The notes under the pieces were generated by a model. The model was not told the origin of the DNA. It did no database searches and worked only from the letters and a program-made list of their open reading frames with translations. A program made the translations under genes and the position numbers. Below are positions 7,380 through 12,298 of a DNA stretch of 64,000 bases, piece by piece (position 1 is the stretch's first letter; the number at the start of each line of letters is the position of its first letter). Source of the stretch: Bacteroides sp. Its GTDB lineage: Bacteria > Bacteroidota > Bacteroidia > Bacteroidales > Bacteroidaceae. Location of the stretch: contig NZ_JAQVBV010000002.1 in NCBI RefSeq assembly GCF_028690125.1, forward strand, positions 62,001 to 126,000. The letters are read 5' to 3'.

Positions 7380-8717
7380 CTATTTTTTCTTTATTTCTTT
7401 TGGAAGAGACTTTTCATATTGCTCCCTAAGCACCAAGAGTTCCTTGACTTTTTCGGGATATTTATCCTTTAGATTTTCGGACTCAGCAGGATTTTCTTTC
7501 AGGTTGGTGAGATATAATCCTTCGATTACTTTGTTTTTATCGTTTGGAAACACATCTATAGCATTGTTTATCAATTTCCAATCACCGTTACGGACGGCCC
7601 ACTGGTTATCAAAATCAAAATGAAGCGTTTCGTGAGGCGATTGCAACATACTGCCTTTTATCAAAGGAACCAAACTTTTTCCGTCCAGTTCTAGTCCTTC
7701 CGTATCCATCTCACAGATTTCGGCTATCGTGGGGAACCAATCGATATTCATGGCAATCTGATCTCTGACTTCGCCTTGCGGGAAATGCCCGGGCCACGAA
7801 ACGATGGCGGGAACACGAATTCCTCCTTCAAACAACGAAAACTTACCTCCTCGATAATCTCCGCAATAACCACCTCCACCAAAGGTACGAACTTCGGTGC
7901 TATGTCCGTTATCCGACTGAAAGATCAAAATAGTATTTTTATCCAATCCCTGAGAAGCCAGGAATGTACGAAGCTCGCCCAGATAGTCATCGAATGTAGA
8001 TACAAAAGCAGCATACATCCGGCGTGGATTGGGTAACTTAGAATAGTATTCCAGCCACTTTTCACTGGGTTGCAAGGGGTAATGTGGAATATTGACAGCC
8101 CAGTACAGGAAGAAGGGACGCTCTTTATCACGATCTTTAATAAAGCCTTTCGCCTCTTTCAGGGTTTCGGCAGTGAAGAATTTGCCCGGTTCATAGATTT
8201 CCTGTTCGTTCCTCCACAGATCGTGCATATTGGGACCACCCCAGTAGTAAAAATGAGAATAACTATCGACACATCCTCCCCGAAATCCCCAGAAGTAGTC
8301 GAATCCACGGGAATTGGGAGCATATTCCTTCCATGAACCCAAATGCCACTTTCCGATACAAGCAGTTTGATATCCGTTCTTCCGCATACGTTCGGCAAGT
8401 GTTTCTTTATGGAGTGGCAGACCTGTCCATCCGGCATTACCGGTCAATCCGGCTCGTTTAGTATATTGTCCGGTGAGCAAGCTGGCACGGGAAGCAGAAC
8501 TGACCGGAGCTGCATAAAATTGAGTAAACCGCACGCCATGTGCCGCCAGCGAATCGATGTTTGGTGTGCACAAATCCGGCGCACCAAAGCAATTGGCATC
8601 CAGTGTACCGTGATCATCGGTATAAATAATGATCACATTAGGTTTTGTTTGCTTAGCTTCTATCATTCCTGCCAGTAAGCAACCTCCTCCTATAAGAATG
8701 AAAGTTTTTTTCTTCAT
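7380..8717 (-). CDS. Sulfatase (Ser-type active site)
   Basis: 'PNVIIIYTDDHG' N-terminal metal motif, 'SSASRASLLTGQY' = S-x-A-x-R formylglycine motif, 'GKWHLG'. Confidence 0.93.
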   Translation of the reverse strand: MKKKTFILIGGGCLLAGMIEAKQTKPNVIIIYTDDHGTLDANCFGAPDLCTPNIDSLAAHGVRFTQFYAAPVSSASRASLLTGQYTKRAGLTGNAGWTGLPLHKETLAERMRKNGYQTACIGKWHLGSWKEYAPNSRGFDYFWGFRGGCVDSYSHFYYWGGPNMHDLWRNEQEIYEPGKFFTAETLKEAKGFIKDRDKERPFFLYWAVNIPHYPLQPSEKWLEYYSKLPNPRRMYAAFVSTFDDYLGELRTFLASQGLDKNTILIFQSDNGHSTEVRTFGGGGYCGDYRGGKFSLFEGGIRVPAIVSWPGHFPQGEVRDQIAMNIDWFPTIAEICEMDTEGLELDGKSLVPLIKGSMLQSPHETLHFDFDNQWAVRNGDWKLINNAIDVFPNDKNKVIEGLYLTNLKENPAESENLKDKYPEKVKELLVLREQYEKSLPKEIKKK

Positions 8718-9214
8718 CTGTTTCCCTTGTCCCGTTAATATTCTGCTTTACGTTATCCTTTTTCAGAAAACAGGTTCCTTTTACCTTAAAAAAAACATCA
8801 AACCTATCCAAAACGTATTCCATCCATTCCTCCGGTCATCAAACAAAGACTAACAATCTGACCGAAACATGATTCTGGAAATTCAAACACCTATTCTAAC
8901 CTTTTATCTTAACCTTAATAATCTATTGAACTTTATATTAAAACGAATAAGAATGAAAGTACCACTAAAAGAATGAAAGAAATAATGATATAAAGTTGAA
9001 TAATAATATTTCTATCATCTGGGCTGTTAGTTCCATGTTCAAATTCTGCACAAAATCCCTCCGGGAATTATCCCCAGAAGGTATTTCATCTCCGACAAGG
9101 AGCATAGCGAGTAATATAGTAAAAGACGGGATATTAACTCAAAGAAAGAAGGTAGGGAACTTTAATGGAAGACTTGACGCAGAAGATTAATAGATAAGTT
9201 CCTCGTGCCCCTTA

Positions 9215-9422
9215 CTTAAGTTGTTCTTCCTTAAGAGATAAGTTTCTTTTAATTGGAACAAATCTATAAACCAAACTTGCGTTTTTACAAATGAAACTTT
9301 CGTTTTTATAAATGCAAATTGCATTTGTACAAACGCAAGTTGCATTTATAGATTTCAATTAATTAAAAGGAAGTTTACTATTAGAGCAAAGGAAGTTTAT
9401 CTCTAATAGAATGGAACTTAAG
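9215..9422. repeat. 208-bp imperfect palindromic (hairpin/MITE-like) intergenic element flanked by CTTAAG
   Basis: CTTAAGTT...AGAGATAAGTTTC..TTTTAATT..AAATCTATAAAccAAACTTGCGTTTTTACAAATG pairs with CATTTGTACAAACGCAAGTTGCATTTATAGATTT..AATTAAAAGGAAGTTT..TATCTCT..AACTTAAG; centre AAATGCAA-A-TTGCATTT at 9318. Confidence 0.75.
9273..9356. repeat. Four head-to-tail 21-bp degenerate repeats forming the core of the palindrome
   Basis: AAACTTGCGTTTTTACAAATG / AAACTTTCGTTTTTATAAATG / CAAATTGCATTTGTACAAACG / CAAGTTGCATTTATAGATTTC at exact 21-nt spacing. Confidence 0.75.
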
Positions 9423-9499
9423 TATTAATACTCTGCAAGGAGAGAATGGATAGGGAACAAAGTAGCAAATAAGATTGGTTGTAGACCTTTACGGAATAT

Positions 9500-9601
9500 C
9501 GGTGATAGGTGATAGAGGGTGATAGATAAAAAACAACCTATCACCGCATGAAAGTACCATCAACAGCGAGTTTCGGAGTATGCGGTGATAGGTGATAGAG
9601 G
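9500..9601. repeat. TGATAG-rich direct repeat pair with inverted copy
   Basis: CGGTGATAGGTGATAGAGG at 9500-9518 and 9583-9601; inverted CCTATCACCGCAT at 9537-9549 against ATGCGGTGATAGG at 9580-9592. Confidence 0.75.
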
Positions 9602-9613
9602 AAATGCGTTTTT

Positions 9614-12298
9614 TTATTGTGGGGAGAGTTCAAAAACAAAATCAGATTGTCCCCCGGCTACCATAATCGTTTTCTCTTTGAGAGCAACCTTCTTCTTACC
9701 TTGTCTGCACGACGTAGCATGATGGGGGATGGAAAGCGTAGCGGTAGTTCCTGCCGGAATGGTAAGTTGAAGGTTCAATTGGTTATCTTTCAGTTGCCAA
9801 CTGACAGCAATAGTACCATAAGGAGATTCTTTCGTAGCTTTCGCCCAAGTCAGACCGACGGGTATTTGCGGATCAATGTATACATGACGATATCCGGGGA
9901 CCGTTTCGTCTTGTCGGATTCCGACTATTGCTTGGTAGAACCAGGTTCCAATGCCATTGTAACAGTTGTGTACCCGGCTGCGCTCCCCACTCCAGTATTC
10001 CCACGTAGCGGTAGCTCCATGATCTATCATATACAGATAACCGGGATAATCGCGTTTTTTCATCATCCGGCAAAGAAAATCTACTTCCTTATTCCGGGTA
10101 GCCCATTCGGTCAGGATAGGTACTCCCACCAAGCCAACTGCAATATGTCCTTTATGTTTATCTTCGGTGATTGCCATCATGTTTTTCTTTACTTTATCAT
10201 ACAACGTATCGGGCACTACACCTACCAACATCGGATAGCACATATCCAACTGTGAACCTGTGGAGTAGATTCCTTCATCTGCACGATAAAAGGTCTGATG
10301 GATCAATCGGTTCAGTTTCTCTTTGCGGGCAGTGAATTCATGTGCTTCTTCTGTCCGTCCCAATGTGGAGGCGATCTTATTCATTGTGCCCAGACACTCG
10401 CTGATAAAGCAGTTGTTCACCAGATCGACAGATGATTGCGCGCCGGCATCGACCCCCATCGGCGCCAGCCAATCGCCCAGATACCAATTACGGTATTCGG
10501 TATCCGGCCAACGCTTCAATAAACCGTCTACCGTATACCGGTCCACATACTTGAACCATTCTTTCATTTGGGCATAATACTTTTCAATCAGCCGTGGGTC
10601 GTTATAATTGATATAGGTACGCCAGGGAGCTTGCACAATAAATCCACACCAATAAGGTCCGCCACCATCGGCGCCCCGATTGGGTCCTACATGAGGCAGA
10701 CTTCCTCCTTCACGCATGGCGTCTCCCCAGCCCTGAAGCCAATTCACGTAAGTTGGTGCTACATCGTACATGGTTTGCAGACTCATGGTGGACGAGTTTC
10801 CGTCGCCACCGTATCCGGCACGTTCGAGATGCGGGCAATCTACCATGTATCCACTAAATGTGAGGCACTTCATCGTGTACTGAATCATATCATGAATAGC
10901 ATTCAAGTCGGGGTCGGAACATTCGAAAGTAGACGTTTGCCGATAATCTCCATGAATTTGCAGAGACTTCATCGATCCGGTTTCTGGTTTCACCGGAAGA
11001 TTGGAGATACGTACGTACCGATAAGAATGGTGATTGAATTTATTTCTGAAACTCTCTCCTTTCTTACCACCGGATATATAAATATCACTTTCACCCTGTG
11101 AGTCAAATTCTCCTTCTTTGGTCAGATTATCGCTGTACTCCATAGTGATTTCGTGTCCGGGAGGCAATATAGGCATTGTCATTTCAAACCATCCGGTTTG
11201 TACTTTTCCCATGTCTACGAGCCAGGTGTTTCCGTTCAGGTTTTTGATAGAAACAGGTTGCAAGACTTGAAAGACTTTGTTTGGCTCACACATTTGAGGT
11301 GAGGCAAGATGTTCCGGCACTTCGACTACTTCTACCGGAATCCACTTCATTTTATCGAGAGTTTGAGAGGACAGATCTGTCGGCAGGATACTTCCATCAA
11401 CCCGTTCGCCCCCGAATTGCAACGCGCACCAGTTACCCGTATCCGAGTAACCACTCTCGCGTCCGCTCCACGAACGATCTGTTTCAGCCAATACTTCCCA
11501 CTGACCGTTTCTTAGTATATCCAGTTCGGCTTTCACCAACGGTCCGTCATAGGCGGCGCCGAAAGTTGTTTTCTTATACCATCCCTGTCCAAGCCAAATC
11601 AGCAGGTCGTTTTCACCCGTTTTGAGGTAAGGGGTAACATCATAAGTGACGATGAGCGAACGTTTGCCTAATTGCGACACGGCAGGGGCAAGGACATTCT
11701 CACTTACTTTCTTTCCATTGATGTATACTTCGTGATATCCCAGTGAGTTCACATGAAGGAAGGCTGTCCCTTCCTCTTCCACCTTCACTTTCTTACGGAG
11801 TATGGGAGCGCAGACTTTACCTCCTTCCGCAGAGGAGCCGATATAGGAACCGTGAAATTGGTCTTTCGCCAGAAGTCCGACAGAAAAGCGTGCCACGGGA
11901 CTCCATTCGGAAACTTGTCTTTTCCGGTCCCACACACGTACTCTCCAGTAACACAGGGACCGGGAAGTCAGGGGCGATCCTTGATAGGGTACCATTACCG
12001 AAAGGTCAGACTTGAGCTTTCCCGACTTCCACAAGTCGGCTTTATCACGAACGAGCAACAGACTGTCCGTTGCTACCTGAATCTCATAGCAGGCTTGTCC
12101 CTGCTTCCATCCATTCCCTTTCAACTTCCAACTGAAGTGAGGGGTGATGTTGTCGATTCCCAAAGGATTGACCAAATTCTCACACTTTAGTTCTTCCAAT
12201 GAGAAAGAACTGTTTTTATCTTTTCCATACATCACCGCCGATACGGTGCAAAAGTAGTATATCAATGTGATGCCTAACAGATACTTTATGTTTCTCAT
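9614..12298 (-). CDS. Alpha-L-rhamnosidase (GH78)
   Basis: 'LKCENLVNPLGIDNITPHFSWKL' GH78 N-terminus, 'YMVDCPHLERAGYGGDG' catalytic-region motif, 'GATATWEYWSGERSRVHNCYNGIGTWFYQAIVGI'. Confidence 0.93.
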   Translation of the reverse strand: MRNIKYLLGITLIYYFCTVSAVMYGKDKNSSFSLEELKCENLVNPLGIDNITPHFSWKLKGNGWKQGQACYEIQVATDSLLLVRDKADLWKSGKLKSDLSVMVPYQGSPLTSRSLCYWRVRVWDRKRQVSEWSPVARFSVGLLAKDQFHGSYIGSSAEGGKVCAPILRKKVKVEEEGTAFLHVNSLGYHEVYINGKKVSENVLAPAVSQLGKRSLIVTYDVTPYLKTGENDLLIWLGQGWYKKTTFGAAYDGPLVKAELDILRNGQWEVLAETDRSWSGRESGYSDTGNWCALQFGGERVDGSILPTDLSSQTLDKMKWIPVEVVEVPEHLASPQMCEPNKVFQVLQPVSIKNLNGNTWLVDMGKVQTGWFEMTMPILPPGHEITMEYSDNLTKEGEFDSQGESDIYISGGKKGESFRNKFNHHSYRYVRISNLPVKPETGSMKSLQIHGDYRQTSTFECSDPDLNAIHDMIQYTMKCLTFSGYMVDCPHLERAGYGGDGNSSTMSLQTMYDVAPTYVNWLQGWGDAMREGGSLPHVGPNRGADGGGPYWCGFIVQAPWRTYINYNDPRLIEKYYAQMKEWFKYVDRYTVDGLLKRWPDTEYRNWYLGDWLAPMGVDAGAQSSVDLVNNCFISECLGTMNKIASTLGRTEEAHEFTARKEKLNRLIHQTFYRADEGIYSTGSQLDMCYPMLVGVVPDTLYDKVKKNMMAITEDKHKGHIAVGLVGVPILTEWATRNKEVDFLCRMMKKRDYPGYLYMIDHGATATWEYWSGERSRVHNCYNGIGTWFYQAIVGIRQDETVPGYRHVYIDPQIPVGLTWAKATKESPYGTIAVSWQLKDNQLNLQLTIPAGTTATLSIPHHATSCRQGKKKVALKEKTIMVAGGQSDFVFELSPQ

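Follow-up and report, generated by a model that had tools for sequence, protein, structure and literature searches.

The window analysed here, 64,000 nucleotides of a Bacteroides sp. genome, contains, between a sulfatase gene (7380-8717, minus strand) and a rhamnosidase gene (9614-12298, minus strand), an intergenic gap in which we located a repeat element at 9186-9432. An earlier note on this DNA had described a near-perfectly centred palindromic element framed by CTTAAG ends at 9215-9422 and centred at 9318. The gap between the two genes does harbor a strongly palindromic stretch, but its extent and centre differ from this description. Compared position by position, the CTTAAG-to-CTTAAG frame is merely 40% complementary, and 9318 corresponds to the dyad of an internal unit, AAATGCAAATTGCATTT (9310-9326). 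The dyad of the element itself is located at 9307/9308, where 65 of 103 pairs are complementary for an arm of 103 bases; no other centre in the 64 kb exceeds 50 pairs with the same arm. A repeat search of the window returned the best inverted-repeat arms at 9232-9305 and 9310-9383 (76% complementary), and TRF revealed a 21-bp period at 9273-9347 (3.6 copies, 81% matches). Thus, the palindromic symmetry of the stretch results from this 21-bp tandem array. Searches of the window copy for a promoter or a terminator yielded nothing beyond the expectation from shuffled sequences.

When positions 9130-9500 were used as query, the genome of origin (5.95 Mb, 149 contigs) yielded 11 further copies, a number far above chance. 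Over about 247 bp, the identity of most of them is 70-80%. The search for dispersed copies suggested by the earlier note hence uncovered a multi-copy family, with 12 members in this genome, and not a single-copy sequence. Because the element is palindromic, the copies match on both strands. Five of 60 relatives, all of the same genus (G001, G009, G012, G021 and G030), likewise carry the element; it is missing from the other 55, save for one marginal match in G031, and absent from all 24 searched genomes of other families. With the respective own copy as query, we counted about 22 copies in G030 and about 13 in G021, including some that belong to the b-subfamily described below. The copies are short, non-coding, intergenic and multi-copy, as is typical of a MITE. 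Their flanking genes are diverse, and no preference for a gene orientation was seen among 52 copies (30 tandem, 11 convergent, 10 divergent and 1 unclear). Two partial second copies (L077:5066-5178 and L096:5766-5847) lie about 2-2.5 kb from a full copy. Sampling of the GC skew in G030 and G021 did not indicate a clear or consistent placement relative to ori, ter or macrodomains; 9 of 11 copies in G021 lie on one arc (p 0.04), a bias that is not mirrored in G030.

The boundaries of the element (about 9186-9432) were set by family-wide conservation. Delimited in this way from the 12 copies in the same genome and the 52 copies in six genomes, the whole dispersed element comprises ~247 bp, is nearly palindromic, has no assigned strand and lacks coding capacity. 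An alignment of the 52 copies indicates that each arm consists of about three ~22-bp units with one AAGTT or AACTT core per unit, and that the termini are degenerate inverted repeats with the consensus TATTAATAGATAAGTTC. In the window, the left arm with its degenerate units and a terminal inverted repeat of this type extends from 9186 to 9263, and the right arm (9352-9432) is its inverted counterpart, ending in ...GGAACTTAAGTATTAATACT. The left arm of the window copy contains no TAnnTTTG promoter box. Between the arms lies a central block, CTATAA...TTATAG (9264-9351), with the dyad at 9307/9308 and four 21-bp units, as defined by its fixed length and by the TRF period. The sequence and the family unit consensus place unit 1, AAACCAAACTTGCGTTT, at 9268-9284, unit 2, AAATGAAACTTTCGTTT, at 9289-9305, unit 3 at the position given above, with its dyad at 9318, and unit 4, AAACGCAAGTTGCATTT, at 9331-9347. 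Including two trailing bases, the block measures exactly 90 nt in 51 of the 52 copies; the odd copy, L041 (G000 C3 about 9651-9876), has a block of 69 nt and hence exactly one 21-bp unit fewer. According to the family consensus, the unit is an imperfect palindrome, a 17-mer close to AAAYRNAA-S-TTNYRTTT followed by a 4-nt nTAn linker. Positions 4-5 of the half-site nearly always hold the step TG, CG or CA, and the two steps of one unit are 9 bp apart. DNABII proteins kink DNA at a spacing of 9 bp, a correspondence that is suggestive only.

Many copies are adjoined by a separate dispersed repeat of the GGTGATAGGTGATAGAGG type, about 120 bp in length and with an internal hairpin, which we termed rep2 and which lies at 9498-9614 (plus strand) in the window. 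In G030, 9 of the 18 listed rep2 copies are located at most 115 bp from an array element, towards which they all point the same end, as compared to an expectation of about 0.5 even if both repeats were confined to intergenic DNA. A motif initially considered as the defining repeat of the element, GGTGATAGG, was rejected, as it belongs to this second family. One G030 copy of rep2 is found just downstream of the gene described in the following paragraph.

Only one flanking gene is common to all six element-bearing genomes, an orthologous HU-HIG gene here designated HU-HIG-a; in each genome, one copy of the element lies upstream of it, with 7-34 bp between the copy and the start codon. The protein, 208-226 aa in length, matches PF18291 HU-HIG with 66.5 bits (cut-off 26.2) and TIGR01201 HU_rel with 94.1 (cut-off 68.6). 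Orthologs with at least 70% identity over the full length are present in exactly the six element-bearing genomes of the 61 and in none of the other 55 (Fisher p 4e-7 for co-occurrence within the genus), so that gene linkage and phyletic co-occurrence, as looked for in a cognate array, were both found. Moreover, a TAnnTTTG box, the Bacteroides-type -7 box, directly precedes the core in 6/6 gene-adjacent copies as compared to 2/45 others (p 2e-6). A structure model of HU-HIG-a comprises an HU/IHF-like (DNABII-like) N-terminal part and a winged-helix-like C-terminal part; the best Foldseek match is weak (E 0.0017), the top matches include HU and IHF chains at E values of at least 0.003, and with a pTM of 0.52 the relative placement of the two domains is not confident. 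In classical HU a proline intercalates in the DNA. In HU-HIG-a, an alanine apparently occupies the position of the classical DNABII intercalating proline (RNAQS). Since one copy fronts its gene in every carrier genome, the element is most likely a docking array of HU-HIG-a; the weak fold matches and this alanine count against such a reading.

A paralog of this gene, termed b (64-68% identical to HU-HIG-a), is present in G000 (the genome of the window), G030 and G021, and has its own array directly upstream. Using the b-array of G030 as query, we found eight further copies in the same genome with 72-87% identity, and comparison of the 88-nt core divides the G030 copies into two groups, nearer to the a-array or to the b-array, respectively, with L208 and L076 as near-ties. 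Therefore, two paralogs, each with a dispersed array subfamily, coexist in one chromosome. For a 54%-identical paralog in G031, one or perhaps two additional copies of the array were seen. The b gene of the window's genome (L127, G000 C115:92414-93037) contains an in-frame TAG relative to its relatives, and its product may therefore be truncated at the C-terminus. Upstream of L118 (G031) and at L119 (G018), an additional inverted repeat (GTTGCAACGCAATCT... in G031), which the window family lacks, surrounds the array.

The generality of this arrangement was surveyed in the 330 bp upstream of 54 such HU-HIG genes (about 49 distinct) from this and other families, including loci of the GTDB collection. 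The 21-bp periodicity exceeded the 99th percentile of the controls for 53 of the 54 genes (about 48 of the 49 distinct ones; mean 0.69), a count in which the earlier loci do not represent an independent test, because the pattern was first noticed in them. The 553 control upstream regions had a mean of 0.39 and a maximum of 0.60. About 16 loci of the GTDB collection were new, and all of them except L194 possess a 21-bp array. The unit sequences vary widely from paralog to paralog, and the units are palindromic beyond the column-shuffled expectation in 31 of 50 cases. The pairing of such a protein gene with an array, though not the array sequence, is thus seen again across the order Bacteroidales. 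Shorter HU_rel proteins mostly lack an upstream array, L268 being an exception. Arrays with a period of 22 bp were observed upstream of a second long HU_rel clade (L260, L265 and L271; MAAxYDFRENPN... type), and an array with a 23-bp period precedes an HU_rel gene of the window's own genome (L273, contig C96).

The earlier note had listed a large RNA hairpin among its readings, and a structured RNA or attenuator, in which the arms form a long hairpin acting in transcripts, has to be weighed against a function at the level of DNA. Folding of both strands, as proposed in that note, indeed predicts very stable structures (about -62 kcal/mol for 208 nt), and the arrays beside the gene are probably transcribed, since they are located 3' of the promoter-like box. 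However, if the RNA of one strand were active, mismatches in the stem should mainly be G.U on this strand and A.C on the opposite one. Across the copies, G.T and A.C mismatches are balanced without bias towards a transcribed strand, and the arms of one copy do not pair better with each other than with those of other copies (z = -2). There is hence no covariation of the arms in this register; of seven tests, one gave a weak signal, in a different register (c=108, p 0.008). In addition, the copies are found in every gene orientation, and searches of Rfam returned only sub-threshold matches of the microRNA type, none of them above the gathering score. On the grounds of the strand-symmetric mismatches and the lack of covariation we rejected the RNA hairpin, which we regard as highly improbable; the hairpin is thus best regarded as a by-product of the tandem palindromic units, a result that points to a predicted protein-binding array.

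The MITE-like element envisaged in the earlier note is borne out insofar as the copies are dispersed, non-coding, intergenic and AT-rich and have degenerate terminal inverted repeats. One site, moreover, is occupied in G000 and G030, whereas G012 and G021 have the same two neighbouring genes with no copy between them; this implies the gain of at least one site in the lineage of G000 and G030, or a loss elsewhere. The frequent pairing with rep2 in a fixed orientation is also in line with a non-autonomous transposable element (MITE) that descends from one which took up sequence upstream of an HU-HIG gene, and whose dispersed copies serve no function for the host. A target-site duplication was not resolved, the empty sites being too diverged to define the junctions. 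The state of the copies speaks against this explanation. At seven orthologous sites in G000 and G030 the arms are 87% identical, the remaining core positions 68% and the flanks 70%, as compared to 99% for the skeleton, a figure that is partly circular because the skeleton columns were picked from the same family alignment; this circularity does not affect the value for the arms or the lack of indels in the core. The copies thus look maintained and not decaying: old copies, with flanks of about 70% identity, have retained both the skeleton and the exact core length, which unused copies would lose. For this reason we consider a MITE without host function unlikely. As a further alternative, a different regulator could bind the array, the HU-HIG gene being merely one of its targets, and gene linkage alone cannot distinguish a regulator's own site from that of a target. 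Yet the array sequence shifts by paralog, even within one genome, and always fronts an HU-HIG gene, and the six genomes with the HU-HIG-a ortholog are those with the array family, which renders this option decidedly improbable. The linkage of the gene-adjacent copy may also stem from a single locus that the six related species inherited from a common ancestor, although the second paralog, like the wider family, speaks against this as the full explanation.

Taken together, we consider it likely that the element is a DNA-level array of predicted binding sites for HU-HIG-a, of which the gene-adjacent copy would be autoregulatory and the dispersed copies would be architectural or sink sites. HU-HIG-a would combine a histone-like domain of DNABII fold with a winged-helix-like domain at its C-terminus, and each 21-bp unit, spanning two helical turns, could accommodate one HU-HIG-a dimer on its 17-bp imperfect palindrome. 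Since the units are evenly phased, they may load a nucleoprotein complex that forms cooperatively along a single face of the DNA. Located between the TAnnTTTG box and the start codon, the gene-adjacent copy would serve as an operator for autoregulation. Within one clade of Bacteroides, the unit would have spread to about 12-22 intergenic sites, which mostly lack the promoter box and keep the putative binding skeleton; these dispersed copies are most likely architectural sites or sinks, which would bend, bridge or locally silence the DNA and titrate HU-HIG-a. The chromosome-structuring repeat also mentioned in the earlier note comes closest to this reading, since the linked gene in every genome encodes an HU-family DNA-binding protein, although a clear ori/ter or macrodomain pattern was not seen.

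On a broader scale, we tentatively propose that Bacteroidales possess sequence-specific histone-like proteins with a private 21-bp-phased array per paralog, that at least two of these pairs have colonised sites in Bacteroides, and that they might form parallel, orthogonal organising or silencing systems with a rapidly diverging code. A gene-linked phased array for each paralog provides a ready predicted target, and a recognition code could be read from pairs of protein and array. Likewise, the dispersed copies offer a set of chromosomal sites at which roles in nucleoid structure, silencing or titration could be tested in dominant gut bacteria. Moreover, reading these sequences as arrays would explain a class of long palindromic intergenic repeats that would otherwise be classified as MITEs or RNA hairpins.

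The linked protein clearly belongs to the HU-HIG/TIGR01201 HU_rel proteins of Bacteroidetes (PF18291). Proteins of the HU family are commonly viewed as DNA benders that are tolerant of sequence. In the limited literature that could be searched, we found neither a description of cognate phased upstream arrays or dispersed sites for HU-HIG proteins nor known target sites for the expanded HU-HIG families of gut Bacteroidales. Autoregulated multi-site operators and dispersed parS-type sites are familiar examples of cooperative tandem sites close to the gene of the protein, together with further sites on the chromosome. The proteins of those systems have a fold unrelated to the combination of DNABII and wHTH seen here, and the window element differs by its ~250-bp arrays, for which clustering at ori or ter is not established. 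BrickBuilt, a MITE of Porphyromonas gingivalis with about 19 dispersed intergenic copies, 23-nt tandem units and inverted-repeat ends (PMC4596501), resembles the window element in being dispersed and intergenic, with internal tandem units and inverted-repeat ends. However, BrickBuilt has IS5-type ends and a 23-nt unit, AGAYCATARTATCCTCTCRTRTG, in non-palindromic direct repeats of varying number (PMC4596501), whereas the element described here comprises 21-bp palindromic units of different sequence and fixed number and is tied to an HU-family gene. As judged by inspection, the unit and the ends both differ from those of BrickBuilt. A 77-bp inverted repeat at the capsule locus of P. gingivalis has been discussed together with the HU protein PG0121 (PMC3969353). 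This system likewise combines a large palindromic region with an HU-family protein; it involves a classical HU at one locus, and neither a dispersed family nor a 21-bp phased array was described (PMC3969353). Dispersed repeats with tandem internal units are thus already known, as is an HU protein discussed with a large inverted repeat, whereas a cognate HU-HIG array and its dispersal were not described in the literature that could be searched.
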